Source: Bacteroidota bacterium (GTDB lineage Bacteria > Bacteroidota > Bacteroidia > Palsa-948). From it: a stretch of DNA of 64,000 nt. This document shows, piece by piece, positions 14,723-45,856 of the stretch. The notes beneath the pieces were generated by a model. That model was not told the DNA's origin and searched no databases. It saw only the letters and a list, made by a program, of their open reading frames with translations. The stretch is from assembly GCA_016195025.1 (NCBI GenBank), contig JACQAL010000043.1:1-64000 (forward strand). The letters run 5' to 3'. Every line of letters starts with the position of its first letter. Within the stretch, counting starts at the first letter, position 1. The translations under genes were made by a program, and so were the position numbers.

Positions 14723-15741
14723 TTTGCCTCCATTAAACTACATCCGCGCAAATCGCTGTTATCCATTCTTCCCAGCACTTCGAATGAACCATCGCTGTGA
14801 ATTTTTCCTACATCCTGCGTGGCAATAAAAGAACAGGAATAAATATTTGCCAAATCAATAATGTTGAGCGCACCTGTTTTCCCCGGTGAAAGAATTTGAA
14901 ACGGGTCATTCACATCACGCGCGAAAACTTTCATCCATGGAGGAGATTTGAAAATTCCATTTCCTGTTGAATATGCTTGAGATAAAAGTTCTGTCATGCC
15001 ATACTCGGAGTGAATTTTTTTTATTCTGAATTTTTCAGAAAGAATTTTATGAAGTTGTTCGCGCGTGATTTCTTCTCTTCTTCCTTTCATTCCGCCCGTT
15101 TCCATTACAATTAAGTTTTCCAAACCCTCAAGCGGAGAAGACCCGCCTGCGGAACGGGCAGGAATTTTTTCTGCCAGTTCTAGCAAAGCAAATGAAACTC
15201 CGAATAAAATTATTTTTTGTTTTTTCTTCAGCAGGATATTAATTGCCTGCAAAATATTTTCATCTTTCGCAGTATAAAATGCACTGTATTTGTTTCGGCT
15301 CCTTTTTATCAAATCCATTGTCATATAAAGCAGCGAAGAATTTTTGTTTGCATAATAAGAAGGAAGAACGGCAAGAACGGCATACTGTTTTGGTTCTCCG
15401 TAAAAAAGTTGAAAACACTTCCGGAAATTTTTTTCGTAAATAGAAATATCGGAAACACAATGCTTACTTCTTTCCATTCCGCTTGTGCCGCTGCTGAGAA
15501 AAACTGATGACTGACGACTGACGACTGACGACTGGCGACTGATTATTTCATGCGTTTTAAAAAATTCTATCGGAAGAAATGGAATTTCCGAAGTGATTTT
15601 TATTTTTTCAGAAACAATTCCCAACTGCTCAATATATTTTTTATAAACAGGATTTTTTTTTGCCTGAAAGCGAAAAATTTTTAGCGCTGCCGCCTCAAAA
15701 TCTTTTTTGCTTCGGATGGAAAAAATTTCGCGCGGAGTCAC
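14719..15741 (-). CDS. LuxE/acyl-protein synthetase-like adenylating enzyme
   Basis: 340 residues. The [13 protein letters not shown] loop near residues 81-93 is the ATP-binding motif of acyl-adenylating enzymes. [13 protein letters not shown] and the C-terminal [17 protein letters not shown], followed by a short terminal segment, match the LuxE/PaaK-like family, which activates fatty acids and transfers them to an enzyme thiol. No luciferase or reductase gene is nearby, so a role in lipid or pigment assembly is more likely. Two repeats interrupt it in frame: six heptamers encoding [12 protein letters not shown] just before the ATP loop (15503-15544), and a GC-rich palindrome encoding PARSAGG (15141-15162). 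Both may be in surface loops. Confidence 0.8.
15141..15162. repeat. GC-rich palindrome inside the LuxE-like gene
   Basis: Minus strand CCTGCCCG, TTC, CGCAGGCGGG forms an imperfect stem in an otherwise A/T-rich gene. It adds about seven residues (PARSAGG) in frame. Confidence 0.6.
15503..15544. repeat. Six tandem heptamers (ACTGACG variants) inside the LuxE-like gene
   Basis: Units read ACTGATG, ACTGACG (three times), ACTGGCG and ACTGATT. Forty-two bases keep the frame and encode a 14-residue SRQSSVV-type repeat. They resemble the short tandem heptamers (STRRs) described in filamentous cyanobacteria. Confidence 0.85.
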
Positions 15742-32102: not shown

Positions 32103-35100
32103 CTACACTCTCACGCCTATTACCAGTATGTCGTCAATCTGCTCAAGCGTTCCTTTCCATTCATCCATAGTTTTTTTCAGAATGTCGTGCTGTTCGTTCA
32201 TAGATTTATTCTGCATGGAAAGAAGCAGTTGCTTGAACTGCGAGTACTTGAATTTTTTTCCTTTCGGTCCGCCAAACTGGTCGGCATAGCCGTCTGTAAA
32301 AATATAAAACGTATCTCCCTTCTGAAGTTCCAGAGAATTGTTTTTGAAATCTCCCGTGCGGTCGCTGATGGCTACGGGCATCGGGTCGGGGTCAATTTCT
32401 TCCAGCACGGGCGCGCTGCTCTTCCTTATTATATACATGGAATTGTTGGCGCCTGCATATTCCAGTTTCCAGTTTCCGGTCTCTTGTTTCCGGTTTTGTT
32501 GTTCTGATTGTAAACCCGAAACTGCAAACCGTAAACTTATTAGAGCCACATCCATTCCGTCTTTCTGCTCGCCCACTTCTCCTCTTTGTTTCAAGGAACG
32601 GATGATTCCTCTTCGCGCATGGTTCAGAATTTCATTCGGAAAAATATTTCCCTCGTTCACCGCTTCATTCAGCAGCGAAGTGTTTATCATGCTCATGAAT
32701 GCACCGGGAACTCCGTGCCCCGTGCAATCGGCAGCAGCGAGCATATAAGAGCGCACTCCGTTTTTTTCCGCTTCATTGAACCAGTAAAAATCTCCGCTCA
32801 CAATATCGCGCGGCTGAAATAAAATAAATGATTCGGAAAATGCTTTTTTTATTTTTTCCGTATCGGGCAGAATTGCTTCCTGAATTTTTTGCGCGTAGTT
32901 AATGCTGTCGGTAATGTCTTTGTTTTTTTCTTCAATCACCTGCTTTTGTTCTTCCAGCACTTCTTTTTGTTTTACCACTTCGGCAGTGCGCTCAATAACT
33001 TTATCTTCCAGAATTTTTTTCTCACGAATGAGCGCCCGCTCGCGGTATTTCACAAATGAATAAGTCCCGCCCACCAGCAGAATCACATAGGCGATGTAGG
33101 CATAAGTCGTCCTGTACCAGGGCGGAGTAATGGTGAATTTAAAAGTTGCCGGCTCTTCGTTCCACTTTCCATTCGCTCCGGCAGCAATTACCTTGAACGT
33201 ATACGTTCCGGGAGATAATGCCGAAAAGGTAACCGAAGTTTCTTTCCGGTCGGGCGACCATCCGGCATCTGCCCCTTCGAGCAGGTAACGGTATTTTACT
33301 TTTTGCGAATTGCTCAAAGAAATGGCTGCGTAATCAAACGTAAGGTGATTGTCGGAATACGGAAGCACGAGCGATTGCGGAAGGTTGAACCAGGGAACCA
33401 GCGAATCGTTTCCGCGCGCTTTCCAGTCCACATCTTTAAAAAAAAGTTTTACGTTGGTGATGTGCACCAGCGGAGCATTTTGGTTTTGAATTTCGGCAGA
33501 AGGATTGAACTTTGTCAAACCCTTCACCGTTCCAATCCAGATGTTTCCTCCGGCATCGCGGTACATGGCGTTGTCATTGCACTCCACTCCCACAAATCCA
33601 TCGCTCGCATTGTAATTTCTGATGTTGAGAATTTTTCCTTTATCGTCAAACGTGATTTTATCAATTCCCTTATCGGTGCCCACCACCATTTCCTTTACAT
33701 CGCGTCCCGATTTTTTTTCATCGAGAAAAATAATGGCGCGCACGGAATTTGAACTGAGCAAACTGTCATTTGCAATCAACCGGATTTTTTTCTTGTCATC
33801 GGTGAAAACATCAAAGCGGTAAAGCCCCCCGTTGTTGGTTCCTATCCACATATTTCCGAACGGGTCTTCGGCAAGGCATTTTATTTCTTTGTGCATTAAT
33901 CCTTCCGCTTCGTCAAAAGTGGTGATGATGCCTTCTCCGCTGTACTTTGCCAGCCCGCCTCCCGTTCCAAACCAGAGGTTTCCGTTTTTATCCTGCATGA
34001 TGGCGTTCACATCCTTGTTGCTTATTTTCATCGTCTCCATATCCATGGTCACAAATTTTGTTCCGTCAAAGCGGCTGATGCCCGCCTTGCTTCCCGCCCA
34101 TACAATTCCGTTTTTGTCAACGAGAATGCTGTAAACATTGTTATCGAGCAAGCCCTGCGATTCGGAATAATTGCTGAACTTTTTTCCATCGTACTTGGTG
34201 ATTCCCGCATTGGAAACCGCTGCCCAGAGATTTTTGTTATGCCTGGTTTTTCCGGCAGAAACAGAGAGGACAATATTTCCGCTCAATCCCTCTTTCATGG
34301 AATACGATTTGCAAACAAGGGGATTCGATTTTAAATTCATTTCCACCAATCCTCCCCCGCTGGTGCCGAACCACAGCGTGCCGAGCGAATCCATGTCAAT
34401 GCCCTGCACGTTGTTGGCGGGCAAGCCGTCCTTTTCCGAGTAATGAGAAAAAATATCGCCCATGAATTTGCAGAGCCCGCTTCCGCCCGAACCAATCCAG
34501 ATATTTTTTTCTTTGTCTTCAAACACGCAGAGCGTTTGGCTGAACGGCATTCCTTCTTTCTCGGCAAACTTTTCAAAAGAAATTTTAGAGAGCAGCGAAT
34601 CGGACGGAGGAACATTTTTCATCCGCAGCAATCCGTCTTCCACCGAAGCGAACCACATTTCACCGCTGCGTGTTTTTAAAATTTTCCAGATGGCTTTCGC
34701 ATTAAACCCGTTTGATTGATTGAACACAGTGATTTTCCGCGAGAGAAGTTCGAGTTTGAAATTTGACTTTGCGCGTTCGGAAGAAATTTTTGGCGCAAGG
34801 CGGAAAACCCCGCCATCGTACGTTCCGAACCACAGCGCGCCCGCATTATCTTCGGCAATGGAAATAATCTGGTCGCTCGGAATTTCTCTTCCGCCCCGCA
34901 GCTGGTCAACTCTGAAAGTATCTTTTTCAAACGAAATAATATTTATTCCTCCCCACGTTGCCAGCCAGAGATGCCCGTCTTTATCTTTATGAATATCAAA
35001 AACCGAACTGTTGCTGAGCCCTTTGTTATCGCCAATCACTTCCACGCTGAACGAATCTTTCACCGCAGAAATTTTATTCAGCCCGCCATTATCGGTACCC

Positions 35101-35522
35101 GCCCACACGGTTCCGTCTTCGTCCTGAAACATGCAAAGCACCGCATCGCCCGCCAGCCCGTTGTTTTTCCCTATGGAAATAAATTTTAATCCGTCATAAA
35201 TAATAATGCCCGCGTCTTTGGTTCCCGCCCATATTCTGCCTTTGTTATCCTGCATGAGCGAGCGCACAATATCGCCTTTAAAGCCGTCTTTTTTATTATA
35301 GGTTCTGAAATTAATTCCGTCAAAACGGCAAATGCCCCCGCCATCGGTTCCCAGCCACAGGTAGCCGCGGTTATCCTGAATGATGCAGTGAATGGTTGCC
35401 TGCGGAAGCCCCTGCTCGAGCGAATAAGTTTGAAAATTGTTGCGCTGCGCGGAAGCAGAAATGAGAAGTAAAAAATTCGAAGCAAGAAGTAAAAAATAAT
35501 ATGATAAAATTCTTTTTTTCAT
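32103..35522 (-). CDS. Two-component-regulator propeller receptor with PP2C (SpoIIE-type) phosphatase output
   Basis: About 1139 residues. After a signal peptide come two seven-bladed propellers built from repeats like YLWLGTDGGGICRFDG and GNLWFGTGGGLAKY, a Y_Y_Y Ig-like domain, one membrane helix (YAYIAYVILLVGGTYSFV), a coiled coil, and a PP2C-type Ser/Thr phosphatase with SGDFYWF, AAADCTGHGVPGAFMSMI and a C-terminal DGYADQFGG. Propeller receptors usually end in histidine kinases; this one instead removes phosphate from Ser/Thr. It could be the SiaA-like phosphatase for SiaC. A repeat at 32461-32537 interrupts the phosphatase in frame. The start was chosen at the signal peptide, downstream of a TACATTTG element. 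Confidence 0.88.
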   Translation of the reverse strand: MKKRILSYYFLLLASNFLLLISASAQRNNFQTYSLEQGLPQATIHCIIQDNRGYLWLGTDGGGICRFDGINFRTYNKKDGFKGDIVRSLMQDNKGRIWAGTKDAGIIIYDGLKFISIGKNNGLAGDAVLCMFQDEDGTVWAGTDNGGLNKISAVKDSFSVEVIGDNKGLSNSSVFDIHKDKDGHLWLATWGGINIISFEKDTFRVDQLRGGREIPSDQIISIAEDNAGALWFGTYDGGVFRLAPKISSERAKSNFKLELLSRKITVFNQSNGFNAKAIWKILKTRSGEMWFASVEDGLLRMKNVPPSDSLLSKISFEKFAEKEGMPFSQTLCVFEDKEKNIWIGSGGSGLCKFMGDIFSHYSEKDGLPANNVQGIDMDSLGTLWFGTSGGGLVEMNLKSNPLVCKSYSMKEGLSGNIVLSVSAGKTRHNKNLWAAVSNAGITKYDGKKFSNYSESQGLLDNNVYSILVDKNGIVWAGSKAGISRFDGTKFVTMDMETMKISNKDVNAIMQDKNGNLWFGTGGGLAKYSGEGIITTFDEAEGLMHKEIKCLAEDPFGNMWIGTNNGGLYRFDVFTDDKKKIRLIANDSLLSSNSVRAIIFLDEKKSGRDVKEMVVGTDKGIDKITFDDKGKILNIRNYNASDGFVGVECNDNAMYRDAGGNIWIGTVKGLTKFNPSAEIQNQNAPLVHITNVKLFFKDVDWKARGNDSLVPWFNLPQSLVLPYSDNHLTFDYAAISLSNSQKVKYRYLLEGADAGWSPDRKETSVTFSALSPGTYTFKVIAAGANGKWNEEPATFKFTITPPWYRTTYAYIAYVILLVGGTYSFVKYRERALIREKKILEDKVIERTAEVVKQKEVLEEQKQVIEEKNKDITDSINYAQKIQEAILPDTEKIKKAFSESFILFQPRDIVSGDFYWFNEAEKNGVRSYMLAAADCTGHGVPGAFMSMINTSLLNEAVNEGNIFPNEILNHARRGIIRSLKQRGEVGEQKDGMDVALISLRFAVSGLQSEQQNRKQETGNWKLEYAGANNSMYIIRKSSAPVLEEIDPDPMPVAISDRTGDFKNNSLELQKGDTFYIFTDGYADQFGGPKGKKFKYSQFKQLLLSMQNKSMNEQHDILKKTMDEWKGTLEQIDDILVIGVRV
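32461..32537. repeat. GTTTCCGGT/AACCGTAAAC-type repeat inside the PP2C domain
   Basis: Runs such as CCAGTTTCCAGTTTCCGGT, TTGTTTCCGG and CTGCAAACCGTAAAC recall the intergenic phrases near 60,800. They encode the hydrophilic insert VSGLQSEQQNRKQETGNWK between two conserved phosphatase strands. Confidence 0.65.
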
Positions 35523-35539
35523 TTCAGAAAAACGAGTGG

Positions 35540-35547
35540 CAAATGTA
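35540..35547 (-). promoter_or_regulatory. -7 element for the propeller-PP2C gene
   Basis: Minus-strand TACATTTG, 17 bases before the chosen ATG; it lies inside the longer open frame to 35642. Confidence 0.45.
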
Positions 35548-35657
35548 AAGAAAAAGTAATCTGAAAATTTTGCTTCTGAAGGGTAATCCATTTCCTTTTT
35601 CCCCATATAAAACATTATTTTTTTCATTTCCCAAAAAATCAACCGGAAATTGCGGTT

Positions 35658-38600
35658 TTAATTTTCGAAATCGGAAATTACCGTACGCCTCGTGACGTGA
35701 GTGGTACGCCTCGTGGCGTGAGTGGTACGCCTCGTGACGTGAGTGGTACGCCTCGTGACGTGAGTGGTACGAACGCTGACGATTACCGCACCACCGCTGG
35801 CGTGAGTGGTACGAACGCTGACGACGCGGTAAAAATACACGCCTTCCTGAAAATTATTTTCAGAAACAGAAAGCGTGTTTGCCTCTGAAGGCAGGAGGTA
35901 ACTCGCTATTTTCACTCCCACCACATCGTAAATTTCAAATCTGGCTTGCTGAGTTTGTTCAAGTGAATATTTTATTGTCATGCTGCCGTTGCTGGGGTTG
36001 GGATAAATGGAAATTGTGGATTGTGATGCGGAAACTTCCGGCTGTTTTGTTTCTGCTGAATTATTGTTTTGCTGTTGAGTGCGCAGAGATGAAGATGCTT
36101 GGTCGCATTGTATATATTTCACCGTAGCATAATCGCTTTGGCTTGCAATCTGCGGATAGGTTAAGCTGAATCCAGAATTTGTAATTCCTGTTACATATAC
36201 ATTGCTGTTTTTATCCACTGCAATTGCAGTAGCTCCGTCATCAGCATTTTGTGAGCCATTAAAATGTTCCACCCATTGCCGAACTCCGTCAGTGCTGTAT
36301 TTTATAGTTGCGTAGTCATGATTATTATTAATGAGGGTGAAATTATATCCCGTCACGTAGGCATTTGAACTGTCATCAAGCGCAATGTCAAGCGCAATAT
36401 CATTAACTGCAACTGAACTATGATAATGCTGAACCCATAACTGCGAACCGCCTGCATCGTACTTTAAGGTTACAAAATCATGAAGTGTCAGCAGGGTAAA
36501 ATTGGCTCCTGTTATATAAATGTTTCCTAATTTATCTACGGCAATTGCATTGGCTGCATCATCAAGATTGGCGGGCCCGTTATATTTTTTAAGCCAGAGT
36601 TGATTGCCGTCCGTATCATATTTGATGGTGGCAATGTCGAGTCCTGAAGTATCTCCCTGGCTGAAGCCGGTTACAATTACATTGTTGCTTGCATCCAAAG
36701 CAAGCGCATTCGTCATGTCATTTCCATTGGCGCTTCCATTAAAGGTTTGAGTCCACAATACATTTCCGTTTGCATCGTATTTGAGCGTGGCGAAATCCAT
36801 ATCAGTGAGGTTCGGTCCCATCTGTATGCAGCCGGTGATATAGGAATTTCCTGAAGCATCCACTGCAATGGCAGAAACATTGTCCATTCTTCCCGTTCCA
36901 TCGAATGCCTGCACCCAGAGTTCATTTCCCGAAGCGTCATATTTAATGGTGGTGTAATCCTCGCCTGTTCCGGCATTATCGGCATCGCCTGTTACATACA
37001 CGTTTCCGCTGCCATCTACGGCTATGGATTTTGCTTCGTCATTTGCGCCCGAAGTTCCATCGTGCGTTTTTACCCATTGCAGGTTTCCGCTGTTATCGTA
37101 TTTCAGGGTGAGGAAATCAAAATCACCGTTAGAAGAGAATGTTTTTCCCGTTACATATATATTTCCGTCCTTATTAAGCACAAGCGCATTGGCGCGGTCT
37201 TCTCCGTTTCCGCTGCCGTTATATCGTCTTGTCCAGAGGGTATCGCCTGCCGAATTGTATTTGATGGTGAGAAAATCCAATCCGCTTCCTATACCTGTGC
37301 TGCTTCCGGTTACATAAACATTTCCTGCATCATCCACGGCAATATCTTTCCCTCCGTCTCCAGCATTGGCGGGACCATTGTATATGGCTGACCATGCCTG
37401 CACAATATTTTTTCCTGATATTCCCAATGTGAAAAGACCACCGCTAACCCACTCTCTTATTGTTTTAAATTCCGGATTATCTATTATGTATTTATTAGTA
37501 TCAAGATAAAATCCAAACAACTGAGTTGTATCAAGCAATCTCAATTGATAAGGGTCAAATACAAATCTTCCATTACTATCAGTAAGAACACGTGAAATAT
37601 TTGTTTGAACATTATTATTATTGTCAAGAATTCCAATAGAAATATTTTTTACATTGTTACTCGAACAATTGTTTGTTAATGCAACATTGCCAACTATGGT
37701 TCTTCCGGTAATTTCATCATCTATGAAATCTTTGTTAAACTCAACTTTCATCACTGCACGGGCGGAGAATACTGCCGGGCCTGCATTTATTGAATTCAAT
37801 GATGCAATGTTTGTTAAAATGGAAATTTCGTTATCTGTTAAGGGGCGGGCAACAGGATAATGATAGGCAATAATAATTCCAAGCACCTGCTTTAAATATG
37901 TTTCAAGAGAAAAGGAAGGGTGCAACCCGGCCAGCATTCCGTTTGCAGTAACATAATTCCCTTGCCCGATTGCATCTTCAACTTTTACAACTTTTTTGAT
38001 AAAATCTATCACATCGCTATTGCCTTCATGTGTCTGTAATTTTTTCACATAGTATTCGTAATCTGCTTTCCATTGCTGAACGCTGTCAACAAAAAAAGCG
38101 CGAACATTCTTGCTCGAATCAGGTGGGGGAGCAATATTTTCGCAAGGCCCGTTTGCAGAGGTTGTATTTGAAATAGAAGCCGCACATCCTGTATACATTA
38201 TATTCGGCACTTTCCCGGTTTTAAAAAACCATTGATTATATCTCTTGATAGTAGAATATTGATTTGCATCGCTATTAAATAATTCCACTTCTCCACCCCA
38301 CGAAGCTGCATTTGAAAACGAATTGTCGCGCGGAGAATTAACGGTGCCATGGGTATATATGTCTCCAACTTGAGAAGGGAATGTTACCGGATTTCTCAAG
38401 GTAGTGCTTGCCAGTTGAGTTCCAATAACATTTTTGCTTAATGTATTGCAGTATATATGCGAAAAACGAACATTGGTTACAAGATGAATTCCTTTTCCCG
38501 CCTGAACAGTGTTATCGTGAACCAAACTATATTCACAATCCGTGGCATTAATTCCGCTGTTCATCCAACCATAAGGATTATCAGAAGCAATATTATTTTC

Positions 38601-41099
38601 ATTAATCCTTAACCCGGGGGAATTAGTTGCCTGAATTCCTCTTGTCGAGGAAGAAAAAGTGGTCACAAAATTTATAGTATTATTTTTTATATTGCTCGAT
38701 GATGATGATGAAAGAATAAGCGAGTATGAATTATTATCTCCCCGAATGTTGTTCAACTTTATTCCGTTTCCGATATTATTTATGATGTTATTGCTAATAT
38801 CAAGAAGTTGAAAAGTTTTAGACGAACTCAGCGCCCATTCCTGCACGACAATTCCATCGGCATACGGAGCGCCATTAAAATCATTGCCAATGATTTTTAT
38901 TTGCGCGCCACCGTTTGTCTGCGCCATAATTGCAGCCCAGTTGTTATTATTAAAAATATTTTTCTGACCGGAAGAATTCCCTCCGATTATCAACTGCCTG
39001 TTGTTATTGCTCTGCCAGAAAATTCCGAAATGAATTCCATTGTTAAACGTATTTCCCTGTATAGTGGAATTTACTCCATTATGCAAATAAATTCCCTGCG
39101 TTACAGAATTAAAAATATTTTTGTCTGTAACATTTATACTTTTATTGCCGCCTGAGCCATCTCCTTCAATAGCAGTATTCAGAATAGTATTGAAATTATT
39201 CTGCTGAATAGCAGCATACGAATTGGAAATTTTAATTCCATACTGGCCCCGGTTAAAAGCATTTTTGAAAGCGCTGCTGGAAGGGTCGCCAATAATTACC
39301 GTGCTTGTTGTATTTAAAATTTCAATGCTTGTTTTTCCTTTATATGCTCCGTTATCCTGAACTCCGGTTAATTGCTGCCCGAAAAATTGGTCTTTCAATG
39401 GAAGCATATGGGAAAAAGCACAACCAACTGTTCTTATATTAGAGCCGGAAACATTTGTAAGTCGAAGATGTGTTCCGTTGGCATTAAACTGAGCGTTGCT
39501 CAGGTTTACTTTCGCATTCGTACCGCCCGCATCTATGGCAATTTTTGCATCGCGAATCACTGGATGAAGCGAAGTATTGCCGCTGTTATTCATAACTAAA
39601 TTTCCTCCGTCATCAACTATGATTCCCTGCCACATTGAATTGCACTGCACCCCTGCCAGCAATGTATTATCTAATATTAGTTGTGCGCCTTTTTGCACTT
39701 CAAGCGTTGCGTTTGGGCCAAATTCAAAAAACATGTTTCCCATTGCGAGAGTTAAACCAGTGGGAATTGTAAGCTTTGTCTGAATTCTTATAACAGGCGG
39801 ATTTGAAGTGCCTGTAATATCATTGCTCTGCATTGTCCATACTTTGATGGGAGGAGTATTTGGCGCGGTAAAACTGGTGGCAGTATAGGCAAGCGGAGTA
39901 ATGTTGAACGAACTGTAATTCTCCCCGTCAATCTGATCGGGCAGGGTAAAAAAATCGGGCCAGTTTGAAAAAAAACCACCGTTATTGTTTTTGCCGGGTG
40001 TAATCGAAGAAATATTTGAATTGGTAGGGCCAATTATGTTGTTGACTGGATCGATGGGAATTGCAACATTTGATTTTGCCGCATAAATAAAACCATTCTG
40101 CGCTAATTCTAATTGCGAGAATCCAAGCCCCTGAACATCTGAATTAGTAATACGCGTTTGACTTGAAGTGTTGTTTACAGGAACATAAAACACCCCATCA
40201 CTTCCTGCCCCCACAAATAATTTTGTGCTTGTTGCATCAAATTCCACACCGCGTCCCATGAACCGGTTCACATCAATTATTCCCACATTAAACTGCTTCA
40301 CTATGTTGTTAAAATTTCCTGTGCTTGCAGTGAGTCCTATGATATTATAATTGTAAAGAGTTGGAAATTGATGCAAACTTCCCCATGCCAGCCATTTTCC
40401 ATCGGGCGAAAGGTCCATTTCCATAGTATGATAATCAAAAGAGCCAGGAATTGCAAGCACCTGCCAATCGGATATACCGGTGAAATTATTACTCGCATCA
40501 GGAACCGAAATTGTAAATCGCTCAAGATGGCTGCGCATTACATATACATAGCGCTTGCCGCCTACATTTTTTCCAACCGCAATGCCGCCCCACGAACCGT
40601 CAAATTTGTCAGTCCAGATAGTATACGGAGTGTTCCGATAGTTACTTGACACAACAACGGGGCTGCCCGATGACATATCTATTACCGTAGCCCACAACTC
40701 CATGGGACCAAAATCAATTGGCTCGTCTTCAATAAAAAACACATAATATTTTTTCTTATTGCAGGCGTCATTATCCATAAAAGGCACGATAGCAATTTCA
40801 TTTTTTCCTATGTGAGTGGCATTATCTCCGAGAGGAGAAATGGCAGTGGAACTGCCCGCTTTGTATATGTTATCATCCGAACAATAGAACATAAGATTAT
40901 TGTTTGCATCATATATTCCGTTCGCTTCATGGGTAACAGAAACTCCGCTTGAAATACTTGTAATCGTAGGAATTGGATTAGAAACATCTGCCTGATTGGG
41001 AGGAATCACCCAGTTTCTCATTTGAGTTTGTGAAATGGAAACATTGCAGCAAGAAAAAACAATTACTGCGAACAATGAATAGAGTAATGATGTTTTCAT
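35658..41099 (-). CDS. Giant secreted propeller/beta-helix/SBBP protein with a disrupted T9SS type A domain
   Basis: 1813 residues. The signal peptide ends near CCNVSISQ. An N-terminal WD-like propeller (about 25-400) is followed by a right-handed parallel beta-helix (about 480-1000; NNIFNNNNWAAIMAQ-like rungs), a linker with DSNGRFVFDPYQLRLLDT, and then SBBP repeats (GNVYVTGSS, DFLTIKYNSAGDTLWTRRYNG and similar, about 1265-1680). The type A sorting domain begins STISIYPNPSNGSMT and reaches EGVYFYRVVS. Its final strand is replaced by a Thr/His/Arg repeat encoded by tandem 21-base units (35683-35830). It is downstream of its neighbour at 41117-42577 by 17 bases, so the two are cotranscribed. 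Confidence 0.85.
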   Translation of the reverse strand: MKTSLLYSLFAVIVFSCCNVSISQTQMRNWVIPPNQADVSNPIPTITSISSGVSVTHEANGIYDANNNLMFYCSDDNIYKAGSSTAISPLGDNATHIGKNEIAIVPFMDNDACNKKKYYVFFIEDEPIDFGPMELWATVIDMSSGSPVVVSSNYRNTPYTIWTDKFDGSWGGIAVGKNVGGKRYVYVMRSHLERFTISVPDASNNFTGISDWQVLAIPGSFDYHTMEMDLSPDGKWLAWGSLHQFPTLYNYNIIGLTASTGNFNNIVKQFNVGIIDVNRFMGRGVEFDATSTKLFVGAGSDGVFYVPVNNTSSQTRITNSDVQGLGFSQLELAQNGFIYAAKSNVAIPIDPVNNIIGPTNSNISSITPGKNNNGGFFSNWPDFFTLPDQIDGENYSSFNITPLAYTATSFTAPNTPPIKVWTMQSNDITGTSNPPVIRIQTKLTIPTGLTLAMGNMFFEFGPNATLEVQKGAQLILDNTLLAGVQCNSMWQGIIVDDGGNLVMNNSGNTSLHPVIRDAKIAIDAGGTNAKVNLSNAQFNANGTHLRLTNVSGSNIRTVGCAFSHMLPLKDQFFGQQLTGVQDNGAYKGKTSIEILNTTSTVIIGDPSSSAFKNAFNRGQYGIKISNSYAAIQQNNFNTILNTAIEGDGSGGNKSINVTDKNIFNSVTQGIYLHNGVNSTIQGNTFNNGIHFGIFWQSNNNRQLIIGGNSSGQKNIFNNNNWAAIMAQTNGGAQIKIIGNDFNGAPYADGIVVQEWALSSSKTFQLLDISNNIINNIGNGIKLNNIRGDNNSYSLILSSSSSSNIKNNTINFVTTFSSSTRGIQATNSPGLRINENNIASDNPYGWMNSGINATDCEYSLVHDNTVQAGKGIHLVTNVRFSHIYCNTLSKNVIGTQLASTTLRNPVTFPSQVGDIYTHGTVNSPRDNSFSNAASWGGEVELFNSDANQYSTIKRYNQWFFKTGKVPNIMYTGCAASISNTTSANGPCENIAPPPDSSKNVRAFFVDSVQQWKADYEYYVKKLQTHEGNSDVIDFIKKVVKVEDAIGQGNYVTANGMLAGLHPSFSLETYLKQVLGIIIAYHYPVARPLTDNEISILTNIASLNSINAGPAVFSARAVMKVEFNKDFIDDEITGRTIVGNVALTNNCSSNNVKNISIGILDNNNNVQTNISRVLTDSNGRFVFDPYQLRLLDTTQLFGFYLDTNKYIIDNPEFKTIREWVSGGLFTLGISGKNIVQAWSAIYNGPANAGDGGKDIAVDDAGNVYVTGSSTGIGSGLDFLTIKYNSAGDTLWTRRYNGSGNGEDRANALVLNKDGNIYVTGKTFSSNGDFDFLTLKYDNSGNLQWVKTHDGTSGANDEAKSIAVDGSGNVYVTGDADNAGTGEDYTTIKYDASGNELWVQAFDGTGRMDNVSAIAVDASGNSYITGCIQMGPNLTDMDFATLKYDANGNVLWTQTFNGSANGNDMTNALALDASNNVIVTGFSQGDTSGLDIATIKYDTDGNQLWLKKYNGPANLDDAANAIAVDKLGNIYITGANFTLLTLHDFVTLKYDAGGSQLWVQHYHSSVAVNDIALDIALDDSSNAYVTGYNFTLINNNHDYATIKYSTDGVRQWVEHFNGSQNADDGATAIAVDKNSNVYVTGITNSGFSLTYPQIASQSDYATVKYIQCDQASSSLRTQQQNNNSAETKQPEVSASQSTISIYPNPSNGSMTIKYSLEQTQQARFEIYDVVGVKIASYLLPSEANTLSVSENNFQEGVYFYRVVSVRTTHASGGAVIVSVRTTHVTRRTTHVTRRTTHATRRTTHVTRRTVISDFEN
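35683..35830. repeat. 21-base tandem repeat at the 3' end of the giant T9SS gene
   Basis: Four units starting GTACGCCTCGTGACG begin at 35683, 35704, 35725 and 35746 with one mismatch, followed by two diverged units starting GTACGAACGCTGACG at 35767 and 35808. They encode VRTTHVTRRTTH-type residues and replace the end of the sorting domain. Confidence 0.95.
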
Positions 41100-44667: not shown

Positions 44668-44806
44668 ACGACCGGTTACTCAACGAGCAATTGCCTGCCA
44701 AAGTTTTAGACGAGCGCGGGTGTTTCTCCTATGAGAATAGGAGTTTCTTCCATGAATGAGGCAAATTCCCCTATGAGAAAAGCAATTTCCATAGGGGAAA
44801 TTCAGA
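44668..44806. repeat. Degenerate 21-nt-period array (TTAGACGA type), locus B
   Basis: A core AYGA recurs at 44668, 44710, 44731, 44752 and 44773, always in multiples of 21. Units end in TTTC or ATTC, and the unit at 44706 begins TTAGACGA as at locus A. Embedded hairpins include CTCCTAT/ATAGGAG with a GAGA loop (44727-44744) and 13-base arms around CCCCTATG/CATAGGGG (44763-44802). This fills much of the 406-base gene-free region 44649-45054. Confidence 0.75.
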
Positions 44807-44907
44807 GTTTGGCACACTGTTGGATATAGGTATGCTTAACTGCGAACTGTAAAACTAAAAACAGGGAACAGTAAAAAAGATGAGAGAGAAAAAGTACACA
44901 ACAAAAA

Positions 44908-44974
44908 TTCCCTGCGATGGCAGGGAAGAACGGAGTACCCCCGATAACAACAGGGGTTGTCAATCCTTCCGTTC
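44908..44974 (+). other. Structured leader: two hairpins upstream of the small SD gene
   Basis: TTCCCTGC-GATG-GCAGGGAA is a perfect 8-bp stem with a 4-base loop (44908-44927). Directly after it GAACGGA (44928-44934) pairs with TCCGTTC (44968-44974) around an inner ACCCC/GGGGT stem (44937-44957). The layout suggests a folded 5' leader or a small RNA. Confidence 0.7.
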
Positions 44975-45037
44975 CGTAAACAGGCAGCGTGCCGGTTTTA
45001 AATTCAACAGTGAAGCGGAATGTGCGGAGGGTAAAGT

Positions 45038-45054
45038 GAAAGGAGATATAAAAA
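45038..45054 (+). promoter_or_regulatory. Strong Shine-Dalgarno sequence
   Basis: AAAGGAGATAT ends about 6 bases before the ATG at 45055. No other gene start in the window shows such a match, and Bacteroidota normally lack it. Confidence 0.7.
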
Positions 45055-45714
45055 ATGGCAAAACAGAAAAAAGCGACTGAAACCACTTCGAAGAAGAAGT
45101 TGGATTTTATTCCCAAAAGGAAAGGCAACCGCATTCTCTGGTCAACGAACATGCGCGCGAAAATTCAAACGCATGGTCCGAACCTCAGTTTGACAGGACA
45201 GGAAGTTACCGATAGCGTCAACTTTATTGACGGCTATACGAATACCGAAGCCGCGCTCGATGCCGTTAAAGTGGATGCACATAATAAATCCAAAGCGGTA
45301 AAGAACGCGCTGAAGGCAATGACTTCCGACCTGCGCAAAAAAGCCAAACGCATGAAAAACTGCAATGGCTATACCGATGCGATTGGCAAAGACCTGGAAA
45401 TTGAAGGCGCTGAGCACCTGGCTCATCTTGATTTGTACAAACCGAAAATCAGGAAAGCGTTCATAGATTCCGGTTTTGTGCACATCTTAGCGATGAAAGG
45501 AGATGCCGAAGCATACAACGTGTATGCCCGCCTGAAAGGTCAGACAGCGTGGATGCTGATTGGCTCCAAGGTGAAGTACACGCCTTTTGTGGATAACCGC
45601 TTGTTGTCAACCCCCAACGTTCCCGAAGAACGGGAGTACAAACTCCATGGCGTATTCGGTGACCGTGAAATCGGGCTCGACAGCAGCATAGCATCTATTG
45701 TGTATGGAGGATAA
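45055..45714 (+). CDS. Small basic protein with helical N-terminus and Fn3-like C-terminus, function unknown
   Basis: 219 residues. A Lys-rich start (MAKQKKATETTSKKK) precedes a helical region (about 20-110). A YTDAIGKDLEIEGAEH motif near 120 and a beta-rich end (VYARLKGQTAWMLIGSK, then FVDNRLLSTPNVPEEREYKLHGVFGDREIGLDS) follow; the end resembles an Fn3-type strand pattern. From memory this arrangement recurs in uncharacterised proteins of environmental Bacteroidota and Verrucomicrobia. There is no signal peptide. G+C content is visibly higher than its neighbours. Unusual flanks (structured leader, strong Shine-Dalgarno, tandem hairpin repeats) suggest a horizontally acquired or specially regulated unit. 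Confidence 0.75.
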   Translation: MAKQKKATETTSKKKLDFIPKRKGNRILWSTNMRAKIQTHGPNLSLTGQEVTDSVNFIDGYTNTEAALDAVKVDAHNKSKAVKNALKAMTSDLRKKAKRMKNCNGYTDAIGKDLEIEGAEHLAHLDLYKPKIRKAFIDSGFVHILAMKGDAEAYNVYARLKGQTAWMLIGSKVKYTPFVDNRLLSTPNVPEEREYKLHGVFGDREIGLDSSIASIVYGG

Positions 45715-45760
45715 CCAAGCCGCGAAAATCAAAACATCATTGTCCGTTAATTCGAACCGT

Positions 45761-45856
45761 GATTGTACCTGACCCCGGAGAAGCATAGTAACCGGGGTTT
45801 GGTGTTTTGATTGTACCTGACCCCGGAGAAGCATAGTAACCGGGGTTTGGTGTTTT
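45761..45856. repeat. Two exact 48-base tandem repeats, each with a GC hairpin
   Basis: 45761-45808 and 45809-45856 are identical. Each contains ACCCCGG and CCGGGGT arms (7-bp stem, 13-base loop) followed by a T-rich TTTGGTGTTTT, so each copy may act as a terminator for the gene at 45055. The second copy ends 17 bases before the stop of the convergent PKD gene. Confidence 0.92.

Follow-up and report, generated by a model that had tools for sequence, protein, structure and literature searches.

Arrays of 21-bp repeats are tied to several families of small open reading frames (ORFs) in Bacteroidota, and their repeat units are locus-specific. One such ORF is the gene at 45055-45714 (plus strand) of the window, by which we mean the whole 64,000-nucleotide stretch analyzed here (contig JACQAL010000043.1 of assembly GCA_016195025.1). 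The unit it belongs to is probably one of a large set of solitary genes in uncultured Bacteroidetes that encode uncharacterised small proteins. The preliminary description missed both the array and a sigma54-like promoter, which lie upstream of the leader hairpins that it reported. In the genus of the window, a candidate sigma54-type promoter follows the array, and the genes share a 3′ hairpin with a covarying stem and a nearly invariant loop. Because nearly every gene has its own repeat letters, the array type may point to an undescribed kind of gene-control DNA. Comparable 21-bp arrays did not come up in a literature search of incomplete coverage.

At 61 loci, comprising 56 loci of the window family and five loci of two partner ORF types (including a few near-duplicates, L134/L140, L135/L141, and L098/L099), we scanned the 700 bp upstream of the ATG for periods 12-41. 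Exactly 21 scores best in 57 of the 61, with z up to 29. Period 21 is best in 5 of 57 in the downstream control (700 bp after the gene). Self-comparison of the loci gives upstream repeats at offsets 63, 84, 105, 126, 147, and 168, all multiples of 21. The arrays average about 15 units and have a mean length of 331 bp (56 arrays); their autocorrelation has sharp peaks at 21, 42, and so on to 126 only (excess identity of 0.275 at lag 21 and 0.20 at lag 126), and subperiods of 7 or 10.5 bp are absent. Many arrays end 35-60 bp from the ATG.

Neighboring units keep their phase despite about 45% divergence, unit letters differ at almost every locus, and tandem duplication in multiples of 21 is visible. 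The paralogues L118/L120 (91% identical) have unlike arrays, and those of L128/L129 (89%) are related, with opposite orientations toward the gene; L105/L106 and L098/L099 retain similar arrays. Since the arrays do not change between the close genomes G009 and G122 (99-100%, gap-free), unit turnover appears to be fast between paralogues but absent between strains that are very close. Units turn over fast yet hold the 21-bp pitch, so that selection seems to bear on letters less than on pitch and dyad symmetry. Dyad symmetry of the unit reaches p<=0.05 in 62% of arrays relative to column-permuted nulls. Complementarity within units is not above that between units, so the symmetry resembles that of protein sites and argues against hairpins; a reading of the units as hairpins is unsupported once the centre is chosen without bias. 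We also considered coding heptads of seven codons, which found no convincing support: the longest ORFs in the arrays are near column-permuted nulls (mean p 0.35) and there is no consistent codon-phase signal, with some excess of fully open arrays. The idea that the N-terminal part of the protein specifies the array was dropped on inspection, as the orthologue-like L130, L143, and L147 have unlike arrays.

The window's own array (44684-44822, plus strand) contains the in-register units CTCCTATGAGAATAGGAGTTT (44726), CTTCCATGAATGAGGCAAATT (44747), CCCCTATGAGAAAAGCAATTT (44768), and CCATAGGGGAAATTCAGAGTT (44789), and a 24-nt repeat at offset 42. It is weak (z21 = 5.98), a value reached by none of 1000 shuffles and by 4.3% of the 700-bp tiles of its own genome. 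Alone it is unremarkable, and its significance comes mainly from the family pattern; further weight comes from the register of CTCCTATGAGAATAGGAGTTT, CTTCCATGAATGAGGCAAATT, and CCCCTATGAGAAAAGCAATTT and from TGGCACACTGTTGGAT at the next boundary (44810). This last sequence (44810-44825, plus strand) is the sigma54-like promoter, in which TGGCAC begins at a 21-bp unit boundary and the -12 element is degenerate. Sister loci have cleaner versions (TGGCACACTATTTGCA, TGGCATGGGATTTGCT, TGGCACAATGCTTGCG, and TGGCACGCCCCTTGCA), and the -24/-12 form TGGCAC-N5-TTGC is perfect or near-perfect at L009, L053, L044, and L056. Including the window, sigma54-like promoters are found at or downstream of the array ends of eight loci (the others are L009, L053, L041, L042, L044, L011, and L056). 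RpoN is encoded in the source genome of the window, G000 (a PF04552 match at G000:C36:70756), and is present in 22 of 23 genomes checked. Family-wide, sigma54 motifs show no excess over downstream controls, and housekeeping TAnnTTTG boxes beside the arrays are rare and give no clear signal.

The leader that follows is structured, as the preliminary description had proposed. It contains a perfect 8-bp hairpin, TTCCCTGC GATG GCAGGGAA (44908-44927), a second hairpin ACCCCC...AGGGGTT (44937-44958, both on the plus strand), and further pairings, with z about -2.3 to -2.6 relative to dinucleotide shuffles. Searches of Rfam with the leader and the 3′ hairpin gave sub-threshold chance matches only. 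The leader end (45025-45058, plus strand) carries the Shine-Dalgarno sequence AAAGGAGATAT (45039-45049), a single exact match in the whole window. The claim that this is the sole strong Shine-Dalgarno in the window held, with AAGGAG at most 18 nt from the start in 1 of 45 non-overlapping genes. A check of the genome for leader copies, also proposed there, found the leader end again with its Shine-Dalgarno (L009, GTGTGCGGAGGATAAAGTTGAAAGGAGATATATGAGCGATGGC) before a small ORF at G000:C43 69.2 kb that is unrelated to the window gene and encodes an otherwise different protein. In the same-genus MAG G005, AAAAGGAGGT precedes a relative of the L009 ORF. The strong Shine-Dalgarno, sigma54-like promoter, and stable predicted terminators would be compatible with high expression.

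The gene encodes a 219 amino acid protein with a basic N terminus, as had been noted, a helical region, and a C-terminal beta domain that is Fn3-like, and it belongs to an unnamed multi-copy family. An Fn3-like C terminus had been suggested, and the AlphaFold model of a relative does match fn3 domains weakly (E about 0.04); the window protein itself has no Pfam fn3 match and does not reach the Pfam gathering score of the Fibronectin type III family PF00041. Nothing is above cut-off for the window protein in Pfam or NCBIfam, or above threshold for the protein or its profile against PDB sequences. AlphaFold models from a thin alignment (pLDDT 58-66) have N-terminal helices and a C-terminal beta domain, and the best PDB matches of this domain are fn3 domains, with weak E-values. 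A G+C content above that of the neighbors was only partly borne out: it is 47.6% compared to a window mean of 40.8%, but the right neighbor is equal at 47.8%.

A profile search found relatives in 25 of 247 class-level genomes, with up to 12 copies per genome. Many copies are cut by contig ends and some are broken by stops (relics). The multi-copy pattern indicates recent copying. Named relatives are Bacteroidetes MAGs from groundwater and permafrost-type samples, going by titles; none were found on the plasmids, phages, and viral contigs searched. The flanks singled out in the preliminary description fared unevenly, since members elsewhere are without the Shine-Dalgarno and hairpin; the 21-bp array travels with them. 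In one genome (G188), the loci L103, L104, and L108, and also L102 and L107, are paralogues with near-identical C-terminal halves, diverged N-terminal halves, and unlike arrays, a pattern that suggests recombination inside the gene.

Downstream of the gene are the two exact, hairpin-bearing 48-bp repeats that had been described (45760-45807 and 45808-45855, plus strand). The first has a stem (45768-45778/45792-45802) and the loop AGAAGCATAGTAA, followed by GTGTTTT, and the second is a tandem copy of this terminator-like hairpin. An outer pairing of AATCAAAACATCA with TGGTGTTTTGATT (45727-45812, plus strand) surrounds the first hairpin, and the AAAACATCA arm of this pairing also occurs at L010, L041, and L042. 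The 3′ region folds with z = -3.2. Counting copies of the 48-base repeat, a check that had been called for, gave four further places in the source genome. A covariance model finds six hairpin copies in the source genome, three strong and two weaker copies in G005, and none in the same-genus genomes G001-G004 and G006. Copies occur behind three unrelated ORF types (the window type; a 206-207 amino acid type, L053, L041, and L042; and a basic 119-124 amino acid type, L009 and L044), and others stand alone. Among nine distinct copies, 93% of cells pair and both sides have changed in 7 of 12 pairs (0 of 500 shuffles). The GAAGYAYAGTA-type loop is nearly invariant across copies, and we presume a resemblance to the GAA/AGUA bulged-G motif.

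Because the stem covaries and the loop is nearly invariant, the hairpin is probably a conserved-loop terminator and not a one-off, and we predict that it terminates transcription. It has the features of intrinsic (rho-independent) terminators: a stable, GC-rich stem that is kept by covariation and then a T-run after the gene. It differs from them in its nearly invariant loop and a conserved 3′ UTR arm across unrelated genes, which suggests an extra role or shared descent. An integron attC-like reading was dropped because of the T-run at the end and the covarying stem. One contig (G000:C28:1-143, L008) begins inside a second, near-identical copy of the 3′ end of the window gene; a single hairpin follows the gene end, and similarity to the window stops just past the T-run, where different DNA begins.

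Period 21 extends to other genes. Unselected sequence of G000 and G091 (862 kb) yields 13 noncoding arrays of period 21 at z>=9; the others have the harmonics 14 and 28, plus period 19 once. Several arrays are directly upstream of other small ORFs. A second Fn3 family (family B) has period 21 upstream in 20 of 28 cases and downstream in 1 of 30, and its array-linked members L186 and L187 are Pfam fn3-positive. A third family (family F, MGYRRLP type) has 11 of 26 at period 21 and 8 of 26 at period 14, and its MPYRRLPNTD-type members (e.g., L245, L246, and L248) are without an array. At L239, L240, L257, and L264 of this family the upstream arrays have period 14, not 21, which suggests a 7-bp-based variant. 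Some 21-bp arrays occur without a family gene (G000:C38:47448-47703, L051; G246:C113 at about 12.2 kb, L117; and G122:C71, L162); these solo arrays sit in convergent gaps or before a secreted-type gene. The link between array and small ORF is strong and not exclusive. There may be a genome-wide class of regulatory or structural DNA, a proposal whose chances we place slightly short of even, that is set by a strict 21-bp pitch and locus-specific letters and not by sequence, and that governs unrelated, uncharacterised small proteins across environmental Bacteroidota. Its units would be regenerated with the pitch kept, at roughly 30-100 arrays per genome by extrapolation.

Our best guess, held tentatively, is that the array acts as DNA, a phased operator array that activates small-protein genes. 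The module would consist of a 150-450 bp array with an exact pitch of 21 bp (two DNA turns), a promoter, the gene, and its own terminator. We infer that the array is read as a long phased row of operator-like sites on one helix face. A putative regulator may bind it cooperatively and activate transcription, by sigma54 RNA polymerase in the window genus; the leader with its Shine-Dalgarno would give strong translation, and the GAAGYAYAGTA hairpin would end the transcript. In favor of an operator array are the preference for period 21 upstream of several ORF families, the unit dyad symmetry with no surplus of pairing inside units, the sigma54-like promoters at or past array ends, the presence of RpoN, and the covarying hairpin stem. 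Several observations stand against it. Arrays of a single genome have different letters, as do those of orthologue-like proteins, and a sequence-specific regulator would therefore have to exist in many versions. Family-wide, sigma54 promoters are not in excess and TAnnTTTG boxes are rare. Many loci have 35-60 bp between array end and ATG, so that the array could be transcribed. There are arrays without a family gene (L051, L117, and L162), and the window array is weak. The main gap is how a sequence-specific protein could read differing letters. There may be many regulators, the protein may recognize DNA shape, or the array may be a mobile-element end.

This last answer belongs to a rather unlikely alternative, that array, gene, and terminator form a non-autonomous mobile or selfish element, with the array as one end and the hairpin as the other, spread by a host or foreign recombinase. 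The patchy multi-copy distribution (25 of 247 genomes, up to 12 copies), with copies at contig ends and relics with stops, agrees with this, as do orphan hairpins, solo arrays, and the second copy of the 3′ end of the window gene at G000:C28, which stops right after its single hairpin. L128/L129 share hairpin, array, gene, and hairpin as a block, and at L045 (G005:C53:13871-13901) repeats are joined to the last bases of a 124 amino acid-type gene and its hairpin, like an internal deletion. However, we found neither a target-site duplication nor a recombinase, and no clean empty site (sought in G122 and same-genus genomes), and the one orthologous site examined differs by other genes. Recent paralogues with different or inverted arrays would be odd for an element end, and plasmids, phages, and viral contigs yielded no copies. 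An unlikely reading, with most room outside the window genus, is that the array functions after transcription, as RNA: its repeats would form a 5′ untranslated region for translation control or a protein-binding scaffold. In many loci it does run to 35-60 bp before the ATG with no promoter visible between, but sigma54-like promoters come after the array in the window genus, its letters are not conserved, and its units are not conserved hairpins, with complementarity no higher within than between them.

Neutral minisatellites growing by chance beside these genes are quite improbable. The variation and turnover of units and their tandem duplication in multiples of 21 agree with this reading, but neutral arrays would be expected to have many periods, and noncoding arrays have almost only 21 bp or its harmonics. 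The phase kept at about 45% neighbor divergence and the position upstream, not downstream, of specific gene families also weigh against chance growth. The suggestion of the preliminary description that the gene was acquired from another phylum with foreign expression signals appears highly improbable. It drew on the sole strong Shine-Dalgarno in the window, but the leader end and hairpin also occur on other genes of the source genome and of G005, and all relatives found, with profile searches made within the class, are Bacteroidia or Bacteroidetes. Because the L009 leader end and Shine-Dalgarno precede a different ORF and G005 uses AAAAGGAGGT, the Shine-Dalgarno and hairpin dress is probably home-made and common to a gene set.

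The operator array proposed here resembles sigma54 (RpoN) promoters whose upstream activating sites serve enhancer-binding proteins: a candidate TGGCAC-N5-TTGC-type promoter lies downstream of repeated, dyad-bearing sites at same-face spacing, and RpoN is encoded. Such promoters have few sites, whereas here there are about 15 with locus-specific letters, and no excess of sigma54 motifs outside the window genus. In plasmid iterons, direct repeats about two helical turns long stand in tandem ahead of the gene for a small protein. The arrays share this arrangement; unlike iterons, they are chromosomal and dispersed, have no Rep protein, and do not conserve unit sequence between copies. Pfam and NCBIfam searches of the window ORF gave no match above cut-off, and hence no replication initiator beside the repeats as in an iteron/Rep system. 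The literature search gave two nearest counterparts. The TAACTGA heptamer arrays known from Beggiatoaceae, Cyanobacteria, and some Bacteroidetes (PMC4679880) are also short tandem arrays in intergenic DNA upstream of genes, but they repeat one fixed heptamer, in contrast to a fixed 21-bp pitch with free letters and no 7-bp subperiod. The minisatellite-bearing MITE of Porphyromonas gingivalis (PMC4596501) likewise places tandem repeats in dispersed elements of a Bacteroidetes genome; it has one repeat type in one MITE family, whereas here each locus has its own repeat sequence and the repeats are tied to gene families. The operator arrays, iterons, and CRISPR repeats known so far are recognized through a conserved sequence. 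Here spacing is constant and letters vary freely, in some cases even from one recent paralogue to another, and one must ask how such DNA is read. The arrays connect several families of orphan small proteins, for which Pfam has no model or gives an fn3 match only, and array, promoter, and terminator together provide a handle for finding more such small proteins and testing their roles.

Some further features were observed near these genes and elsewhere in the window. The sister locus of the window gene at G000:C43 is followed by a DNA methyltransferase-like ORF (293 amino acids) and an ORF that may be its partner (about 70.3-71.9 kb; L009, L054). At 35636-35848 of the window, the last codons of a long secreted-type gene (35658-41099, minus strand) are made up of a strong period-21 array (GTACGCCTCGTGACGTGAGTG, z=19). 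This array also precedes the minus-strand gene 32103-35627, and it looks as though it had replaced the 3′ end of the 35658-41099 gene. A heptamer array of ACTGACG occurs at 15503-15542, with 5.7 copies and 90% identity.
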